From: Rhodothermales bacterium
GTDB taxonomy: Bacteria; Bacteroidota; Rhodothermia; Rhodothermales; UBA10348
NCBI GenBank assembly: GCA_040221055.1
Contig: JAVJVN010000013.1
Coordinates: 1-64,000 of the forward strand
Length of the DNA stretch: 64,000 nucleotides
Direction: 5' to 3'
The translations under genes and the position numbers were made by a program. Positions 33,313 through 41,117 of this stretch are shown piece by piece. The notes beneath the pieces are model-generated. The model was not told the DNA's origin. It made no database searches and worked only from the letters and a program-made list of their open reading frames with translations. The number at the start of each line of letters is the position of its first letter. Position 1 is the stretch's first letter.

Positions 33313-33499
33313 GGGACGATGGGCGGTTGGGTGGAATGGAAGACCCTTCAACCATTCCGGGACGGAAGGGTTCGGCCTGACTGTTTTCGGAACGCCTGCC
33401 TGCGGCCCATAGGAAGTGTCGGGGCGGTGACGCATATTCCGCGCCACGCTGAAAAGGCAGCTCCAATACACTTTGGCCCGCCCCGCCGGGGCACCCTCC

Positions 33500-34789
33500 A
33501 TGTCCGAACGCGCGTCTGCCCCATCCCGGGGTCTGGCCCTGCACTGGAAAATCCTGATCGGTTTGGTGGCGGGCGCAGTCGCAGGCAGCGCCGTGAACAT
33601 CTGGGTGGGCGCCGAGGGAGCGGCATTCGTCACGACGTATGTCCGGCCGGTCGGCACGCTGTTCATCCGGCTCATCACCATGATCGCTGCTCCGCTGGTC
33701 CTGACCAGCCTGGTCGTGGGGGCTGCTTCCATGGACGATCCGCGCAAACTGGGCCGTATCGGTGGCAAGTCCCTGGGCATCTACATGGTCACCACGGCCA
33801 TGGCCATCTCCATCGGTCTGATCACGGCCAACCTCATCCAACCGGGTGCCGGCGTGCCGGCAGACGTGAGTGCCCGGCTCCTGGAAGGATACCAGGACCA
33901 GGCGTCCACCCGTATTGAGCGGGCCGAAGAGGTATCCTGGATCGACCAGATCGTGCAGATCGTGCCCACAAATCCATTTGCCGCGCTGGCTGACGGCAAC
34001 ATGCTGCAGATCGTGTTCTTCGCGCTCATGGTGGGCATCTGTCTGACGCTCATCTCCCGCGCGAAGGCCGAGCCGGTCCTGCGCGTGTTCGACGGGTTCA
34101 CGGACGTACTCATCCGGATTGTCGACCTCGTCATGCTGACGGCGCCCTACGGCGTATTCGCGCTTATTGCCGCGGTCACGGCCGAATTCGGATTCGGTAT
34201 CCTGGGAACGCTGGGGTGGTATGCGGCGGCCGTGGTCCTGGGCCTGAGCCTGCACCTGGTACTCGTGTACGGCGGGATGCTGACATGGGTATCCCGCGGT
34301 CGGATGTCGTTCGGGCAATTCATGAAGGTCATGGGGAACGTCCAACTCCTGGGATTCAGCTCGTCGAGCAGTGCAGCCACGCTCCCGCTGAACATGGAAA
34401 CGGTTCGCGACAGACTCGGCGTCAGTGACCGGGTGACGTCGTTCGTATTGCCGCTCGGTGCCACCATCAACATGGACGGGACGGCGCTCTACCAGGGCGT
34501 GGCCGCGGTGTTCATTGCTCAGGTGTACGGCATTGCGCTCACATTCGGGGATCAGATTGCCATCGTGCTGACGGCGACGCTGGCCTCCATTGGAACGGCG
34601 GCCGTACCAGGCGCCGGCATTGTCATGCTCGTGATTGTGCTCCGTACGATCGGCGTGCCGGTGGAAGGGATCGCGCTCATCGTGGGCATTGACCGGATCC
34701 TCGACATGTGCCGGACCGTGGTGAACGTGACAGGCGATGCCGTGGTCGCGGTCGTCGTGGCCGCCACCGAGGGCGAGTGGAATCCATAA
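33500..34789 (+). CDS. Dicarboxylate/amino acid:cation symporter (DAACS family)
   Basis: A 429-residue inner-membrane symporter of the DctA/GltP family. Visible motifs are the opening helix (ALHWKILIGLVAGAVAGSAV), RPVGTLFIRLITMIAAPLVL, the reentrant Ser-rich loop (GFSSSSSAATLPLNM, including SSSSAATLP), the NMDGT motif (ATINMDGTALYQ), the second hairpin and DRILDMCRTVVNVTGD. These bind substrate and Na+ or H+. The likely substrate is glutamate, aspartate or C4-dicarboxylates. The ATG at 33500 fits the family better than the TTG at 33473. A GC-rich hairpin follows the stop, then the small VYRC protein gene. Confidence 0.92.
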   Translation: MSERASAPSRGLALHWKILIGLVAGAVAGSAVNIWVGAEGAAFVTTYVRPVGTLFIRLITMIAAPLVLTSLVVGAASMDDPRKLGRIGGKSLGIYMVTTAMAISIGLITANLIQPGAGVPADVSARLLEGYQDQASTRIERAEEVSWIDQIVQIVPTNPFAALADGNMLQIVFFALMVGICLTLISRAKAEPVLRVFDGFTDVLIRIVDLVMLTAPYGVFALIAAVTAEFGFGILGTLGWYAAAVVLGLSLHLVLVYGGMLTWVSRGRMSFGQFMKVMGNVQLLGFSSSSSAATLPLNMETVRDRLGVSDRVTSFVLPLGATINMDGTALYQGVAAVFIAQVYGIALTFGDQIAIVLTATLASIGTAAVPGAGIVMLVIVLRTIGVPVEGIALIVGIDRILDMCRTVVNVTGDAVVAVVVAATEGEWNP

Positions 34790-34871: not shown

Positions 34872-35207
34872 ATGCACGCCCCGCGCCTGGCCCACTTCGT
34901 CCTGCTCATCCCGATGATCCTGCTCATGCTGGGTCAGTCGGTGCGCATGATGCCTGCGCCAGACGCCACGGACCATGGCGTCCATGCGGATGATGCGATG
35001 GGCCTCACCGCCGAGCCCACCTCGGTGTTCTCAGGTGTCCTGCCGTCCGGGCCCCGCCCGGCTTCTGTTGCATCCGATGCGCCGCAGTTCCATTCTGCAC
35101 GGTTTGCAGAGCGTATCGTCGGGCAGTACGCCGTCGGCGCGCGCGTGCCCGAAGGGCCGCGCGTCGCATCCCTTTCCCGCCAAATCCTTCGTGTCTATCG
35201 CTGTTGA
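34872..35207 (+). CDS. Small membrane/exported protein with C-terminal LxVYRC motif, copy 1
   Basis: A 111-residue protein of unknown family. It has a hydrophobic N-terminal segment (HFVLLIPMILLMLG), a low-complexity Ala/Pro/Ser-rich middle, and ends exactly in SRQILRVYRC followed by the stop. A second gene in this window (36901-37317) has the same plan and ends in SRHFLQVYRC; only the hydrophobic part and the last ten residues are alike. The final 15 bases of both genes, GTCTATCGCTGTTGA, are identical. It lies 52 bp before an amino-acid permease gene, with a 6-bp hairpin in between. The plan resembles export-linked arrest or leader peptides, but also fits a small secreted protein with a terminal Cys. 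Confidence 0.65.
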   Translation: MHAPRLAHFVLLIPMILLMLGQSVRMMPAPDATDHGVHADDAMGLTAEPTSVFSGVLPSGPRPASVASDAPQFHSARFAERIVGQYAVGARVPEGPRVASLSRQILRVYRC

Positions 35208-35213
35208 CAGGCC

Positions 35214-35231
35214 GCTTGACCCCGCTCAAGC
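35214..35231 (+). promoter_or_regulatory. Hairpin between VYRC copy 1 and the amino-acid permease
   Basis: GCTTGA (35214-35219) and TCAAGC (35226-35231) form a perfect 6-bp stem with a CCCCGC loop. It begins 7 bp after the stop of the small VYRC gene and ends 28 bp before the permease ATG. A comparable small hairpin follows the second VYRC gene. Confidence 0.4.
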
Positions 35232-35259
35232 ATCCCTGTAACCGTATTGGACACAACAC

Positions 35260-36720
35260 ATGAAGGATATTCTCTTCCGGCGCAAGGCTATTGCGGCGCC
35301 GGACGCCGTCGGCTCCGGCTTGAAACGCGTTCTCGGGCCCGTTCACTTGACCCTGATGGGCATTGGTGCCATCATCGGGACCGGCATTTTCGTGCTCACG
35401 GGAACGGCAGCCGCCGGTGGCCCGGGCCATGAAGGTGCGGGACCCGCGCTCATGGTCAGCTTCCTCCTGACCGGATTCACGTGCGGGCTCGCCGCGCTGT
35501 GCTACGCCGAGTTGGCATCCATGATGCCCGTGGCCGGCAGCGCCTATGCCTACGCCTATGCCGCGTTCGGTGAGCTGGTGGCGTGGATCATCGGGTGGGA
35601 CCTCATCCTCGAGTATGCCGTCGGCAACGTGGCCGTGGCTATCGGTTGGTCCAGCTATTTCCAGAGCCTGCTGGCGGCCGGGGGTATGCACCTGCCCGTC
35701 TGGCTGGGAACGGATCCCATGACGGCGTCCTACGCGGCCCCACACGTATTTGACGCGGCGCCGACCGTGTTGGGCCTGCCCATCGTGTTCAATCTGCCGG
35801 CGTTCCTGGTGGTCGTCGTCATGACGGCCATCCTGAGCATCGGCATCCGCGAAAGCGCGACGGCCAACGCCTGGCTCGTGGCCATCAAGCTCGGCATGAT
35901 TGCCCTGTTCCTCTGGGTGGGTGTCGGTCACGTGGATGCGACGAACTGGGTGCCGTTCGCGCCGAACGGCTGGAACGGCATTGTCACGGGCGCCGCACTG
36001 GTGTTCTTCGCCTTCATCGGATTCGATGCGGTGAGCACGACCGCCGAGGAGGCCCGGAATCCCCAGCGGGACATGCCCATTGGCATCATGGCCAGCCTGC
36101 TGGTCTGCACGCTGCTGTACGTGGCGGTGACGGTGGTCCTGACCGGCATGGTGCCCGTTTCTGCCCTTGCGAACGCCGAACCCGTGGCCGCGGCGTTGCG
36201 GTTTGTCGGCGAAGCGCGCGTGGCCGCCCTCCTGTCGGCCGGGGCCGTCATCAGCATTGCGAGCGTGCTCCTGGTCATGCAGATGGCCCAGACGCGGATT
36301 TTCTTCGCCATGAGCCGCGACGGGCTGTTGCCGCGTGGGCTGAGCCGGGTGCACGCCCGGTGGGGTACGCCGCTGCTGCCGACGGTGCTCACGGGTCTGG
36401 TGGTCGCCGTGGCCGCCGGCTTCATGGACATTTCCGCCGCCGCTGAGCTGACCAATATCGGTACGCTCTTCGCCTTCGTCATCGTGTCCGGGGGCGTGTG
36501 GTGGCTGCGTGTCCACCAGCCCGACCTCCATCGACCCTTTCGCGTCCCCTTTGTGGGCGTGGTCAGCACCGCCGCCATGCTGTCCTGCTTCTACCTGATG
36601 CTCGGACTTCCGGCCGTCACGTGGGAGCGCTTCGGGATCTGGCTGCTGCTTGGCCTCATCATCTACTTCGTCTTCGGCCTGCGTCACAGCCGGCTGGGAC
36701 ACACTCAGTCAATACAATGA
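35260..36720 (+). CDS. APC-superfamily amino-acid permease (cationic amino-acid transporter type)
   Basis: A 486-residue inner-membrane transporter with about 12-14 helices. The unwound TM1 motif IGAIIGTGIF, followed by a GPGHEGAGPAL loop and the FLLTGFTCGLAALCYAELASMMPVAGSAYAYAYA segment (given here only as its family trait), identify the CAT-type branch of the APC family. The late motifs FAFIGFDAVSTTAEEARNP and RIFFAMSRDGLLP are also typical. It imports amino acids with H+. Its TGA overlaps the ATG of a 41-codon single-helix protein (36717), implying strict translational coupling. A small bound protein (MgtS) is known in the ApcT crystal structure from Geobacillus, so a small subunit is plausible. 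Confidence 0.92.
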   Translation: MKDILFRRKAIAAPDAVGSGLKRVLGPVHLTLMGIGAIIGTGIFVLTGTAAAGGPGHEGAGPALMVSFLLTGFTCGLAALCYAELASMMPVAGSAYAYAYAAFGELVAWIIGWDLILEYAVGNVAVAIGWSSYFQSLLAAGGMHLPVWLGTDPMTASYAAPHVFDAAPTVLGLPIVFNLPAFLVVVVMTAILSIGIRESATANAWLVAIKLGMIALFLWVGVGHVDATNWVPFAPNGWNGIVTGAALVFFAFIGFDAVSTTAEEARNPQRDMPIGIMASLLVCTLLYVAVTVVLTGMVPVSALANAEPVAAALRFVGEARVAALLSAGAVISIASVLLVMQMAQTRIFFAMSRDGLLPRGLSRVHARWGTPLLPTVLTGLVVAVAAGFMDISAAAELTNIGTLFAFVIVSGGVWWLRVHQPDLHRPFRVPFVGVVSTAAMLSCFYLMLGLPAVTWERFGIWLLLGLIIYFVFGLRHSRLGHTQSIQ

Positions 36721-36842
36721 GCTTCCTGAATCCTCCTTTCGACAACGACAATGACCGGATTTCCCACTATGCCTTCCTGTTCTTCATGGTCATGTTGGCG
36801 TTGAGCCTGGTCATGGTCATCGGGATGTTGTTCGCGCTGTAG
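36717..36842 (+). CDS. 41-residue single-helix membrane protein (SHYAFLFF family), copy 1
   Basis: A tiny protein: a polar start (MSFLNPPFDNDND), then RISHYAFLFF and a hydrophobic helix ending in GMLFAL. Its ATG overlaps the permease stop (ATGA, 36717-36720). A 34-residue homolog occurs at 37365-37469 with the same SHYAFLFF start, an LSL centre and the same GMLFAL end. Independent conservation of both ends across two copies argues that this is a real gene although very short. Its likely job is a subunit or stabiliser of the permease. The family is not one I recognise. Confidence 0.8.
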   Translation: MSFLNPPFDNDNDRISHYAFLFFMVMLALSLVMVIGMLFAL

Positions 36843-36848
36843 CCGGCA

Positions 36849-36900
36849 GGGCGGAAACTTCAGCGCTTCTCGTGGTTGAAGCGCTGAAGTTTTTCCGCCC
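36849..36900 (+). terminator. 21-bp hairpin between the two small-protein genes
   Basis: Bases 36849-36869 pair with 36878-36900 in a 21-bp stem interrupted only by a two-base TT bulge at 36893-36894, with an 8-base loop (TCGTGGTT). It starts 6 bp after the 41-residue protein's stop and its last base touches the ATG at 36901. The run of T in the right arm lies inside the stem rather than after it. It may end transcription of the permease operon or control the second VYRC gene. Confidence 0.7.
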
Positions 36901-37317
36901 ATGACCGCCAACACGTCCACCAACTCTGCCGCGAACGCTGCCGCCGATGCCGCCGCACGCGTGTGGATGCTCGTCCCGATCCTGCTGCTCTGGGCGGGTT
37001 CGGTAGGGAACGGCTTTTCGGGCAGTTCTTCAGGCGTCGATCGGGTTCTGGGGCCCGGATTGGACTCTGGAAGAAAGAATGAACCGGCCACCGCAGCCGT
37101 TACCACCGCCGAGCCCTGGACGGGCCAGGCCGTGTTGCCCGTGTCCGTGGCCGTTCCTGTTGTTGAGGATGTCCGGCCAGCGGGTCCCCAGTCCGGGCTG
37201 AAGGGTCCGCGACGGGAACGTACGGTTCGCTCCCGGGAGCTGCCGTTTGCCGCCACGGAATCGCGTGACGATTCCCCGTCTACGAGTCGGCATTTCCTGC
37301 AGGTCTATCGCTGTTGA
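36901..37317 (+). CDS. Small membrane/exported protein with C-terminal LxVYRC motif, copy 2
   Basis: A 138-residue protein if started at the ATG at 36901; GTG 36961 or ATG 36967 (MLVPILLLWAGSVG) would match copy 1 better and escape the adjoining hairpin. After the hydrophobic helix the middle is variable and Ala/Pro/Arg-rich, and the protein ends in SRHFLQVYRC. The helix parallels copy 1 ([L/V]-P-[M/I]-[I/L]-LL pattern), and the terminal VYRC and its codons are identical. A 5-bp hairpin (GAGCG 37321-37325, CGCTC 37333-37337) follows the stop, and the second tiny SHYAFLFF gene follows after 47 bp. No permease is present between them. Function unknown. Confidence 0.6.
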   Translation: MTANTSTNSAANAAADAAARVWMLVPILLLWAGSVGNGFSGSSSGVDRVLGPGLDSGRKNEPATAAVTTAEPWTGQAVLPVSVAVPVVEDVRPAGPQSGLKGPRRERTVRSRELPFAATESRDDSPSTSRHFLQVYRC

Positions 37318-37320
37318 GAT

Positions 37321-37337
37321 GAGCGCCACGGTCGCTC
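37321..37337 (+). promoter_or_regulatory. Hairpin after VYRC copy 2
   Basis: GAGCG (37321-37325) and CGCTC (37333-37337) form a 5-bp stem with a 7-nt loop, 4 bp after the stop codon of the second VYRC gene. It matches the position of the hairpin after copy 1. Confidence 0.35.
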
Positions 37338-37364
37338 TGCTCACCTCAACAAGCCATTACTGCA

Positions 37365-37469
37365 ATGTCAAACTCCAACGACAAGGTGTCGCATTACGCG
37401 TTCCTGTTCTTCGCCGGCGCGCTCATCCTGAGCCTGCTGGTCCTCGTCGGCATGCTGTTCGCGTTATAG
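37365..37469 (+). CDS. 34-residue single-helix membrane protein (SHYAFLFF family), copy 2
   Basis: Encodes MSNSNDKVSHYAFLFF followed by a hydrophobic helix ending in GMLFAL, 34 residues in total. Compared with copy 1 (36717-36842), the D-[KR]-[VI]-SHYAFLFF start, the LSL centre and the GMLFAL end are kept while the intervening helix residues differ. It follows VYRC copy 2. Its last six bases overlap the stop end of the convergent M14 peptidase gene (37464). The gene would be missed by most length cut-offs; homology to copy 1 is the main support. Confidence 0.75.
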   Translation: MSNSNDKVSHYAFLFFAGALILSLLVLVGMLFAL

Positions 37470-39230
37470 CCGGACCGTTTGCTGGACGTCGCCGCCCTTG
37501 GTGCTCTCGTACCGGATGGTGACGTCGCCCCGTCCGCGCAGCAGGTATTCGATGGTCCGGGTCGTATGGCCCGGATGACCATTCCGGATCATGATGCGCG
37601 ACAGGTTGTGCTGGTCAATGAGTTCCGTCGCATCCGGGCGGAACTTGTTGGCCACCCAACCGGCCGAGATCACCTCCACGTTGCGTCCGGACACCAGGAG
37701 CAGGTCCGGCGGGACCACATTGTTCTGCGCCGCGCGTGCCGTGATGGTGGGAGCCACGCGGTCATTCTCGATGTCAACGCGCACCCGGTAGACGTCATCG
37801 GCAACCCGTTCCACGGTGGGCGCGTGCATGGCCATCCTGGGCATCTGGTCGGCCTGGTACAGCGTGAAGGCCATGTTCCGGTGCGAGAGTTCCTCGTTCA
37901 TGAACCGGGGCGGAATGCGACCGCGCAACTTCGACCAACCGCCGAGCTCCACGGCTCCGTACGTGGGGTGGTCGAACGGTTTCCACTCCGAATACTGGCC
38001 CCCGAACTCCAGGTAGTCGTCGAAGAAATACGAGCCCTTCTGTCCGGCAATGGGGCTGTCGTCGTCCCGTTGCTGCTCCTTCAGGTCCGGACTGTTGTAG
38101 TACTGCCCTCCGTTCCAGAGTTCGTTCGAAAACGAAATGATGCCCAGGCCGTCGTTCGTCCAATCAATGAAGCCACCGTGCACGGTGTACAGGCCGCTCC
38201 AGATGACCATGTATTCGTAATACGGGAGCATCCGCTCGCCCTGACGGCCGAGTTCATCGTAGACCAGGTTGTCCTCACGCGGGTACTCGCCCTGCCATTC
38301 GGCGCCGGGGCCGCGGAGGATCATCCCCCCGCTGTTGTGATACGACTGCACGCCGGCAATATTTGGGCGTGACACCAGGAAATCATTGACCGCGCGGGCC
38401 GCCGGAAGCTGGAACGGATAGTCGAGCGACCCGCCCTGGATGTAGTCGGGCTGCCAGTCGGAGGCCCAGTTCCGGTTCGGATCGTAGCCGCCCGGTCCGT
38501 CCTCGTCCACGCGACCATCTCCGTCGTCATCAATGCCCTCGCTGCCGAGCAGGATCCAGTCGCCCTTTTCGCCATCGGGTACGACTTCCATGATCCGCGG
38601 GTCGTCGTGACTTATCCGGTGGGTACCCTCACCGGGAACGTATTTGCGCATCTGCTCCCGGATGCCGTTCCCATTCAGGTCATTCGGACCGTCCTCGTCG
38701 AACAGGCCGTCGTTGTCGTTGTCCACCGGAAAGTGACCGGTACGGGCGCCACTGCCCGTATCCTCCATGAAGTACTGCCGCCCGTCCGGGTTCACGGTGG
38801 GCACGATGTAGAATACGCGCTCATCCACCAGCCGCGTAATCATGTCGTTCCGGCCGTAGTTCTCCATGAGGTACCAGATGGTGTACAGCGACACTTCCGA
38901 CCCTTGGATTTCGTTGCCGTGCACATTGGCTTCAATGTACATGCCCGCCTTTTCCAGCTCGGGTCCGGTCTTCGGATTGTTGATGGTCATCATCATGATG
39001 TCCCGGCCGCCCCAGCTCTTGCCCAGCGAGGAGAGCGTGAGGAATTCCGGCCACGTCTCGGCCATCAATTCCATGTTCTGGATGAGTTCGCCGTAGTCGT
39101 GCCAGCGATTCCAATCCAGACGCAGGGTATGCGGCGGGTCCGATGCTTCCTGGGCAATCGTGGCGAGGGGCGTGGCTGCGAGGGCCGCGAGCAGGAGGCT
39201 GGCGGCGGCAATGCGTTCCATTACATTCAT
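37464..39230 (-). CDS. M14-family zinc carboxypeptidase (exported)
   Basis: A 588-residue exported metallopeptidase. The signal peptide ends in TIAQ. The M14 zinc site is intact: H104 and E107 in NVHGNEIQGSE, and H298 in QSYHNSGG. Arg in DPNRNW is the substrate-binding Arg region. Between the ligands are two Asp-rich, calcium-binding-like stretches (DNDNDGLFDEDGP near 170 and DDDGDGRVDEDGP near 234). The C-terminal ~150 residues look like a beta-rich accessory domain (YRVRVDIENDRVAPTITARA). It would trim C-terminal residues of extracellular peptides. It lies directly after a diverged paralog (gap 1 bp) in one leftward operon, a set-up for peptide scavenging. Confidence 0.9.
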   Translation of the reverse strand: MNVMERIAAASLLLAALAATPLATIAQEASDPPHTLRLDWNRWHDYGELIQNMELMAETWPEFLTLSSLGKSWGGRDIMMMTINNPKTGPELEKAGMYIEANVHGNEIQGSEVSLYTIWYLMENYGRNDMITRLVDERVFYIVPTVNPDGRQYFMEDTGSGARTGHFPVDNDNDGLFDEDGPNDLNGNGIREQMRKYVPGEGTHRISHDDPRIMEVVPDGEKGDWILLGSEGIDDDGDGRVDEDGPGGYDPNRNWASDWQPDYIQGGSLDYPFQLPAARAVNDFLVSRPNIAGVQSYHNSGGMILRGPGAEWQGEYPREDNLVYDELGRQGERMLPYYEYMVIWSGLYTVHGGFIDWTNDGLGIISFSNELWNGGQYYNSPDLKEQQRDDDSPIAGQKGSYFFDDYLEFGGQYSEWKPFDHPTYGAVELGGWSKLRGRIPPRFMNEELSHRNMAFTLYQADQMPRMAMHAPTVERVADDVYRVRVDIENDRVAPTITARAAQNNVVPPDLLLVSGRNVEVISAGWVANKFRPDATELIDQHNLSRIMIRNGHPGHTTRTIEYLLRGRGDVTIRYESTKGGDVQQTVRL

Positions 39231-39231
39231 G

Positions 39232-40998
39232 TCAGTTCAGGGTAATCGAGGCCGAATCGGAGCCTCCTTTCTGGGCGACGACCTTGAGTTCGAGGGTCTG
39301 GCCGCGGCGACCGCGGACGACCCACTCGTATTCCTGGCGGTTTCCGGAGCCGTCCAGCGCCGGAAAGAAATTGGTCTTGGCGCTGCCCGACAGGATGTCG
39401 TCCGGGTCAATGCCCAGCTGGACCATGGTCGGGGCCACGGACCGGGAGGTCACGCCATGCGCGGTCGAGGTCGGCAGGAATCCGGCGTTCTCGATTTCCG
39501 CAGTGATGCGGAAGATGCCTCCACCGTGATCGGTTACGCTTGTTTCGGCGATGTGGACACGGGGAAACAGCGACATCAGATGCGCCACGAACGCCCCGTG
39601 CTTCGGGCCCTGCTCCGCCACCACGTCGGCCGGTGGATTGTAGGCCTCGAAATGCTTGAATCCGCCTATTTCGACCGCGCCGAGCGACGGGTGGTCGAAT
39701 GCGGTCCACTCCACGAACCCGTCCACGCCCTTGGCATCCATCCAATCGATCAATTGGCGGTCGAAGGAGGCTTTCGCGTCAGGCTTGGCGCCGGAGCTGT
39801 CTGCCGGCAGGTCGAGTCCCCATCCGGGTGTCGAAAAGGACGGTACGCCGAATTGGTAGTACCCGTACTCGAAGAAGGCGCCGGCCGGTTTGCGGAGCGC
39901 CGGAGGCGTTTCAATACCCGTCAACTCCTTGTACGTCTTGCTGATGGCCGTGAAATACGGCAGGTCATCCGAGTTGACCGTAGTGGCAGGCCGACGGCCG
40001 GAGCGCCCCCCGGCGTTCGAAGCCTGCCCACCGCCGCCGCCGCCGAAGAAACGGGGCGTCGACGTGGTGAAGATGCCCACCTTGGACGCATCCTCCAGGG
40101 AGGCGTCGGCAAACGCAAACAGATCAATACCCTTGGCAGCAGCCAACTCGCCCTTGTTGTTGGGTGGTTCTATCAGGTTGTCGCTTTCGCTGAGCGTCAG
40201 CACCATGGCGATATGCCGATGCGAGACAACGAAATCCAGGAGCGCCCGCGATTCGCGTTCGCTGACCATGTGCAGGCCGGCCCCGCGCTGGTAATACGGG
40301 TATTCGTGCTGGAAATTCCGGTTCAGGTCCACGCCACCCGCGGCATCCTCGTTGTAGAAGCCGTCGTTGTCGTCATCGGTCCCCTCCCAGTACACCGCCC
40401 AGCCGCCTTTCTCGCCCTTCTTCGGGTCGGCCTTCTTCATGATCCGGGCATCGTCCGGATCGATCATGTAGGGGCTTCCCGGTTCCTGGACGCGCATGAG
40501 GCTGATGAACCCGTCGCCGTTCAGGTCCTCGGGCCCGTCCTCGTCCGTGCGACCGTCGTTGTCATCGTCGTACGCCGAGGTGTTGGTGGCGCCGAAACGC
40601 CGCTCCGCACCATCCGGATTCAGTCGCGGAAACACGTGCAGGGTGTACGAGTCGAGCGCCTTCGTCACGGCATCGTTGGTGCCGTATTCCGCGAGCAACC
40701 AATCGATCGTACCGAGCGCGATTTCGCTGCCCACCACGTGATGCCCTTCCAGGTTGGCGACCATCAGAAGCGCGGGCCGTTCTTCCAGCGGAACGCCAGC
40801 CGACCGGTTGCCGAGGGTCAGTACCCAGATGTCGCGGCCTTCCAGGGTTTTGCCGGCCGATTCGAGAGACGCCAACTCCCCGTGTGCCGCAACGGTCGCG
40901 CGGAGCGCGGCCGTCAGGTCATCGTAGTCGGGTTTCGTGGGCAACAGAAGCAACAGGGCGGCCATCGCGGCGCCCAGCCAATGGGATTTCAGGATCAT
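39232..40998 (-). CDS. Diverged M14-like paralog with altered zinc ligands
   Basis: A 588-residue paralog of the downstream gene; the ATG at 40998 gives a signal-type N-terminus (MILKSHWLGAAMAALLLLL). Alignment by eye with the active copy places ANLEGHHVVGSE over ANVHGNEIQGSE, so the HxxE zinc motif has become ExxH (E84, H87). The third ligand His is Ser270 here (VLTLSESDN over VQSYHNSGG). The Asp-rich calcium-like stretches and the DLNRNF Arg are kept. A Gly/Arg-rich insert (GGGGGGQASN) lies mid-protein. It is either inactive, a binding partner for the active copy, or uses a rearranged site. It is the first gene of the two-gene operon. Confidence 0.82.
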   Translation of the reverse strand: MILKSHWLGAAMAALLLLLPTKPDYDDLTAALRATVAAHGELASLESAGKTLEGRDIWVLTLGNRSAGVPLEERPALLMVANLEGHHVVGSEIALGTIDWLLAEYGTNDAVTKALDSYTLHVFPRLNPDGAERRFGATNTSAYDDDNDGRTDEDGPEDLNGDGFISLMRVQEPGSPYMIDPDDARIMKKADPKKGEKGGWAVYWEGTDDDNDGFYNEDAAGGVDLNRNFQHEYPYYQRGAGLHMVSERESRALLDFVVSHRHIAMVLTLSESDNLIEPPNNKGELAAAKGIDLFAFADASLEDASKVGIFTTSTPRFFGGGGGGQASNAGGRSGRRPATTVNSDDLPYFTAISKTYKELTGIETPPALRKPAGAFFEYGYYQFGVPSFSTPGWGLDLPADSSGAKPDAKASFDRQLIDWMDAKGVDGFVEWTAFDHPSLGAVEIGGFKHFEAYNPPADVVAEQGPKHGAFVAHLMSLFPRVHIAETSVTDHGGGIFRITAEIENAGFLPTSTAHGVTSRSVAPTMVQLGIDPDDILSGSAKTNFFPALDGSGNRQEYEWVVRGRRGQTLELKVVAQKGGSDSASITLN

Positions 40999-41117
40999 GA
41001 CAAACGGGTCTCGTCGACGGGATGGAATCGAACCAAAGTAGGCATTGCGGTCCTTCCTGGCCCGGCAAAAATCCGCCGGCATGGCTGGGGCCTCCTCGAC
41101 TTCCAACTCACCCAGTT

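Follow-up and report, generated by a model that had tools for sequence, protein, structure and literature searches.

Candidate leader peptides ending at UGA stop codons precede a family of single-helix membrane proteins in a Bacteroidota order

We describe a two-gene unit that occurs twice in a 64,000-nucleotide stretch of DNA (hereafter the window) from a Rhodothermales bacterium (GCA_040221055.1, contig JAVJVN010000013.1, positions 1 to 64,000), and that recurs in related genomes. Its first gene, VYRC, is an open reading frame (ORF) with an N-terminal export segment, a disordered spacer and the conserved tail L-x-V-[YF]-[RL]-[CL] directly before a UGA stop codon, while its second gene, SHY, encodes a small single-helix membrane protein. 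Eleven nucleotides, counted from the VYRC stop codon, show complementarity to the last 45 nucleotides ahead of the next start. The combination of export segment, spacer, tail at the stop, invariable UGA and stop-to-start pairing leads us to lean, with some reserve, towards reading each VYRC ORF as a leader peptide that gates the next gene through a presumed ribosomal pause. The wider proposal is somewhat more tentative: the VYRC proteins may form a new VYR[CL]-UGA family of arrest peptides that stall at termination, control an undescribed single-helix family throughout the order and have once recruited an amino-acid permease. Mechanistically, it varies a known theme; the novelty, if confirmed, would lie in the tail, the controlled gene and the lineage.

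A conserved pair of small genes

Both copies of the unit lie on the + strand of the window, with VYRC before SHY, exactly where an earlier reading of the sequence alone (the sequence-only reading) had placed them. VYRC1 (34872-35207; 111 amino acids, stop TGA), which is located 5' of a permease gene and SHY1, has a hydrophobic segment at residues 6-20, a spacer of 91 residues and the tail LRVYRC. VYRC2 (36901-37317; 138 amino acids as an ORF, stop TGA) ends in LQVYRC, and AlphaFold, run on the single full-ORF sequence, predicted a helix at residues 7-35 and a remainder that is disordered or of low confidence. BLASTP detected no similarity between the two (E 2.2); what links them is their shared tail and layout, along with the relatives found elsewhere. 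SHY1 (36717-36842, 41 amino acids) and SHY2 (37365-37469, 34 amino acids), both on the + strand, share 65% identity, differ synonymously at 10 codons and have a ratio of nonsynonymous to synonymous substitution rates (dN/dS) of about 0.2, which marks them as real paralogous proteins.

In about 119 relatives, stringent nucleotide patterns for SHYAFLFF and for VYRC matched this genome only, and the orphan status suggested by this result was overturned by a profile that was seeded with the two SHY proteins, then iterated, and that found distant relatives. The first SHY profile gave weak matches in a second family, where a same-strand ORF of about 120-140 amino acids, hydrophobic at its N-terminus and ending in LCVFLC-stop, lay directly upstream. 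SHY genes were found in 14 genomes of the order, which is probably Rhodothermales, and in 12 of these, spanning seven families, a VYRC-type ORF precedes them (110-140 amino acids, with N-terminal hydrophobic segment, disordered spacer and tail). The genome G030, which lies outside every profile, passed a blind test: its SHY gene was detected at E 1e-9 and is preceded by an ORF of 114 amino acids that has a hydrophobic N-terminus and ends in DVLLVYRL-stop. Together with the tail scan described below, the pairing in 12 genomes indicates a conserved two-gene unit of the order; the same pairing in related genomes is what the sequence-only reading had proposed to look for.

The same reading had taken both families to be undescribed and under selection, and our data agree on both points. 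VYRC proteins matched no Pfam family, and SHY proteins gave only stray single-member Pfam matches (best E 0.003, in one of 14). Purifying selection is apparent in the dN/dS of SHY (about 0.1-0.2 in informative pairs) as well as in that of the leaders (0.34-0.5). SHY proteins are built alike: 34-70 amino acids long, they are polar at the N-terminus and have a single helix (A-F-x-F-F-M-G) at the C-terminus.

The VYRC-SHY unit is patchy in its distribution and duplicated in some genomes (G000, G075). A phage-type integrase (locus L204, 3354-4478) adjoins one of the two G075 SHY pairs and could be a vehicle for this patchy distribution. Several candidates were discarded. Single-sequence searches of the family yielded chance matches only, namely one in G002, which is antisense to a miaA-like gene, and VYRC frames at loci L111 and L113; SHY-profile matches in other orders of the class resemble, by eye, unrelated helices.

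Tail, stop codon and stop-to-start pairing

All checked VYRC members have an N-terminal hydrophobic segment, as judged by hydropathy, followed by about 90-110 spacer residues. Conservation is highest in the tail that abuts the stop; the rest of the protein is disordered and has diverged. Most tails follow the consensus (LRVYRC, LQVYRC, LCVFLC in five copies, LCVYLC, FCVYRL, LCVYRL and LLVYRL); it is looser in G036, G007 and G031. When 114 genomes were scanned at the DNA level for LxVYR[LCFWR]-stop, ORFs of at least 100 amino acids with a strongly hydrophobic N-terminal stretch were found at five places only, all of them SHY-associated, and the remaining matches were chance frames; chance is thus a poor explanation of the tail. 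UGA is the stop codon in all 14 tail ORFs, as opposed to 66 of 173 control genes from similar loci. Certain of these genomes use UGA more often, and it ends 27 of the 44 genes of the window, for example, so that this uniformity is supportive rather than decisive. We also observed that the tail tyrosine (35187-35207, 37297-37317 and relatives) is encoded by TAT in six of six cases, though the genomes prefer TAC, and the tail phenylalanine by TTT in five of six, although the genomes mostly prefer TTC.

Stop-to-start complementarity was assessed in 11 lineages with a duplex test, in which the stop codon plus 12 nucleotides was paired with the last 45 nucleotides before the next start and compared with what 1000 dinucleotide-shuffled versions of the gap gave. 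Ten of the 11 lineages reached p<=0.083, with a combined Fisher p of 5.8e-7, which stayed at or below 1.1e-5 on leaving any one lineage out and was 1.1e-5 both with a single lineage of the largest family, f13, and without the window. The five pairs that had not been inspected beforehand gave a Fisher p of 4e-4, which is the fairest figure, because the window sizes of the test were chosen after some examples had been seen. Moving the 5' window by 15-60 nucleotides abolished the signal (Fisher p 0.14-0.94), and among 120 ordinary gene pairs used as a control 17% reached p<=0.1. A fine scan, in which the 5' side was fixed and the 3' side shuffled, gave a mean z of -1.94 at the stop codon and -1.80 at +3, while the means at the 24 other positions lay between -0.8 and +0.5. 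The stretch that begins at the stop codon is covered by a ribosome whose A site holds that codon.

The pairing is conserved in kind across different sequences. Within f13, the gap starts with TCCTCGCA or TCCTCGT and ends with TGCGAGG or ACGAGG, respectively, so that both sides covary, and the 3' arm of the stem is the Shine-Dalgarno region of SHY, a few nucleotides before the start. The same kind of pairing is found with other sequences in G007, G030, G031, G046 and both units of the window. Its most striking single case is the stem between VYRC1 and the permease (35191-35254, + strand, predicted by folding), which includes the VYRC tail codons, the stop codon and the following bases and ends 5 nucleotides before the permease start; at -27.2 kcal/mol (z -4.55) it was matched in stability by none of 200 shuffles, and its duplex p is 0.009. 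The stem between VYRC2 and SHY2 (37313-37350, + strand, from folding and the duplex test) runs from the stop codon (GTTGAGATGAGC) to just 5' of SHY2 (GCTCACCTCAAC), with a z of -1.4 and a duplex p of 0.06.

A leader-peptide interpretation and its rivals

Known leader peptides provide the closest parallels. SecM, MifM, VemP and the RAPP-type ApcA, ApdA and ApdP are monitoring substrates, that is, leaders of 80-200 amino acids with an N-terminal signal or transmembrane segment, a long spacer, a conserved C-terminal motif and a stem that hides the next start (PMC7897499, PMC10987492); a layout of this kind is also described for uDF_RQH (PMC10987492). VYRC ORFs resemble them in the N-terminal segment, the conserved C-terminal sequence, a spacer of more than 30-40 residues and the stem at the next start, but, in the pairs examined, do not lie upstream of secA, secDF or yidC. 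Stalling with a stop codon in the A site has been described for the Bacteroidota leaders NSP-stop and NAP-stop (PMC10987492), and the 24-residue TnaC likewise stalls with UGA in the A site, where RF2 is unable to release it; by way of Rho termination and tryptophan, TnaC regulates an operon that includes a permease (tnaB) (PMC8429421). VYRC shares with TnaC the UGA stop and, on our reading, a permease among the controlled genes (tnaB there, the window permease here), but differs in its length of 110-140 residues, its stop-to-start stem and its signal segment, which TnaC lacks. The tail followed by UGA matches none of the published arrest motifs that we compared, and the VYRC stall is putative.

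CutF (DUF2946) of Rhodobacter capsulatus is an exported nascent leader whose C-terminal part bears a stalling-like motif, and a stem-loop covers the Shine-Dalgarno sequence of the downstream gene (PMC9973294). It has in common with VYRC the exported leader, the stem and a downstream gene outside the export machinery; unlike CutF, VYRC has no DUF2946 match (none of 12 members at E<=10), no proline-rich tail and no downstream metal genes. A conserved CxxxC metal motif is likewise missing from VYRC, as cysteine is absent in three of 11 members and present at the last residue only in three others. Metal sensing through cysteines, as in CutF, was rejected on these DUF2946 and cysteine results.

From the SecM-, VemP- and CutF-like layout and the precedents for stalling at stop codons, we propose that VYRC1 gates the permease and SHY1, and VYRC2 gates SHY2. 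The N-terminal signal or membrane segment would bring the nascent VYRC chain to the export machinery; meanwhile, the ribosome would arrive at the C-terminal tail and the UGA stop, where it may pause because export is slow or a ligand is sensed. The paused ribosome would cover the bases just 3' of the stop, so that these no longer pair with the sequence ahead of the next start and the stem opens for translation of the next gene. This gene would be SHY, the presumed main target, in nearly all genomes; in the window, SHY2 would be translated after VYRC2, and the permease and SHY1 after VYRC1. The pause could then be relieved by export force, pulling on the chain, or by a ligand, for instance an amino acid. 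The sequence-only reading had seen two unknown small proteins in the unit; both families are real, but they are probably not equal partners, since the VYRC ORF resembles a regulatory leader.

Several observations weigh against a gating leader. The tail is short and, with variants such as LHVLRL, LRPIRC and YGVFLT, loose; G036 has no stop-to-start complementarity (p 0.81), and the SHY genes of G013 and G016 have no leader before them. Whole-gap folding alone, by partition functions at individual loci, does not favour closure over shuffles (p about 0.06-0.98), and the 3' arm covers the Shine-Dalgarno sequence only in f13, lying upstream of the start in several other lineages. Finally, the target is no known export component, unlike those of SecM, MifM and VemP: no sec or yidC gene adjoins the pairs examined, where the downstream gene is SHY or the permease.

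The main rival, which we consider unlikely, is plain translational coupling, in which any terminating ribosome opens the stem and VYRC is an ordinary exported protein with a tail that serves elsewhere. Such coupling predicts the stop-to-start stem equally well and needs no pause, yet it leaves both the conserved tail before the stop and the 14 UGA stops in 14 ORFs unexplained. The export segment at the N-terminus, the disorder of the spacer, the conservation of the C-terminal residues and the constant pairing with SHY would also suit a VYRC protein that acts after its own export, with SHY as its membrane partner and with a hydrophobic tail that is released as a peptide signal or docks in a periplasmic partner or PDZ-type protease, for which MucE and AlgW are a known case. 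This seems quite improbable to us, as it predicts neither the stop-to-start complementarity nor UGA, the roughly six conserved residues exceed a typical PDZ ligand, and no protease or receptor gene recurs beside VYRC.

Two further alternatives concern the nature of the small genes themselves. A single helix of 34-70 amino acids behind a gated start, in a patchy and partly duplicated distribution with one copy near an integrase, might recall a type I-like small membrane toxin whose translation is gated by the leader ORF. We regard this as very unlikely for SHY, which by eye has no basic tail or stress-toxin features, is translationally coupled to the permease as SHY1, and elsewhere immediately precedes an ABC protein or an operon with an L,D-transpeptidase; nor did any known RNA family (Rfam) match in the region. 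That both ORFs are chance or decaying frames without function is the most improbable of the alternatives: their confinement to one order and the near absence of shared sequence between VYRC1 and VYRC2 beyond the tail could be read in this way, but the pairing in 12 genomes, the G030 blind test, purifying selection and the positional RNA signal contradict it.

If the gating leader is real, exported-leader control extends beyond export genes to an unknown one-helix protein, SHY becomes a candidate export or envelope factor, and the short, easily mutated tail offers a means to study how ribosomes stall at UGA. In the published screens that we compared, the search for arrest peptides that monitor secretion was restricted to regions upstream of secA, secDF and yidC. 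We found no literature linking Salinibacter with arrest peptides or Rhodothermota with small proteins, in a search that left most subscription journals outside.

The permease and other neighbours

The permease gene (35260-36720, + strand; PF13520 and AA_permease_C) encodes what, judged from its sequence, is an ordinary transporter of the APC/CAT type; its best NCBIfam model is BcaP, with a score below the cut-off. As the SHY1 start lies inside the permease stop codon (ATGA), the two form one translation unit. The sequence-only reading had centred the module on this permease, a view that did not hold: the permease occurs in two of 27 genomes of the family, its other copy (G017) is without either small gene, no such small genes were found in 80 further permease neighbourhoods (mostly from other phyla), and the neighbours of the VYRC-SHY pair differ elsewhere. 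A second set without a permease, which that reading had singled out, is truly present here; it is the usual arrangement elsewhere rather than an exception.

The neighbours of the pair in other genomes are an ABC protein shortly downstream (G046), FeoB upstream (G007), an APC-Usp permease upstream (G069, G107), and a lipoprotein and an L,D-transpeptidase beside SHY (G036, G013, G016). Judged from these operon neighbours, our mildest guess is that SHY proteins are small accessory subunits of envelope or transport proteins. KdpF, AcrZ and MgtS are single-helix accessory subunits of transporters, and SHY is like them in its small size and single helix, with the SHY1 gene overlapping a permease in the window; in contrast to this likeness, Pfam revealed no sequence relation, and SHY neighbours vary. 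In three genomes (loci L197, L201, L166), a SHY-like gene is followed by a conserved lipoprotein of about 200 amino acids and a YkuD L,D-transpeptidase, and two of the three are without a leader ORF.

Between the two units of the window lies a long terminator-like inverted repeat (36849-36900, + strand; -38.4 kcal/mol, z -6.4). It abuts the ATG at 36901, so that VYRC2 may start later, at GTG 36961 or ATG 36967; the true start and its promoter probably lie within 36901-36967. Beyond SHY2, an adjacent pair of M14 zinc carboxypeptidase genes occupies the - strand (37464-39230 and 39232-41106). The first has no relative at the cut-off in the three genus-mates searched and relatives of 74-83% identity in other genera of the family. 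Upstream of VYRC1, this genome carries a divergent second gene for an SDF-family (GltP/DctA-like) symporter (33473-34789), with 54% identity to its counterpart on contig C11; the genus-mates have one copy of this symporter above the cut-off used.

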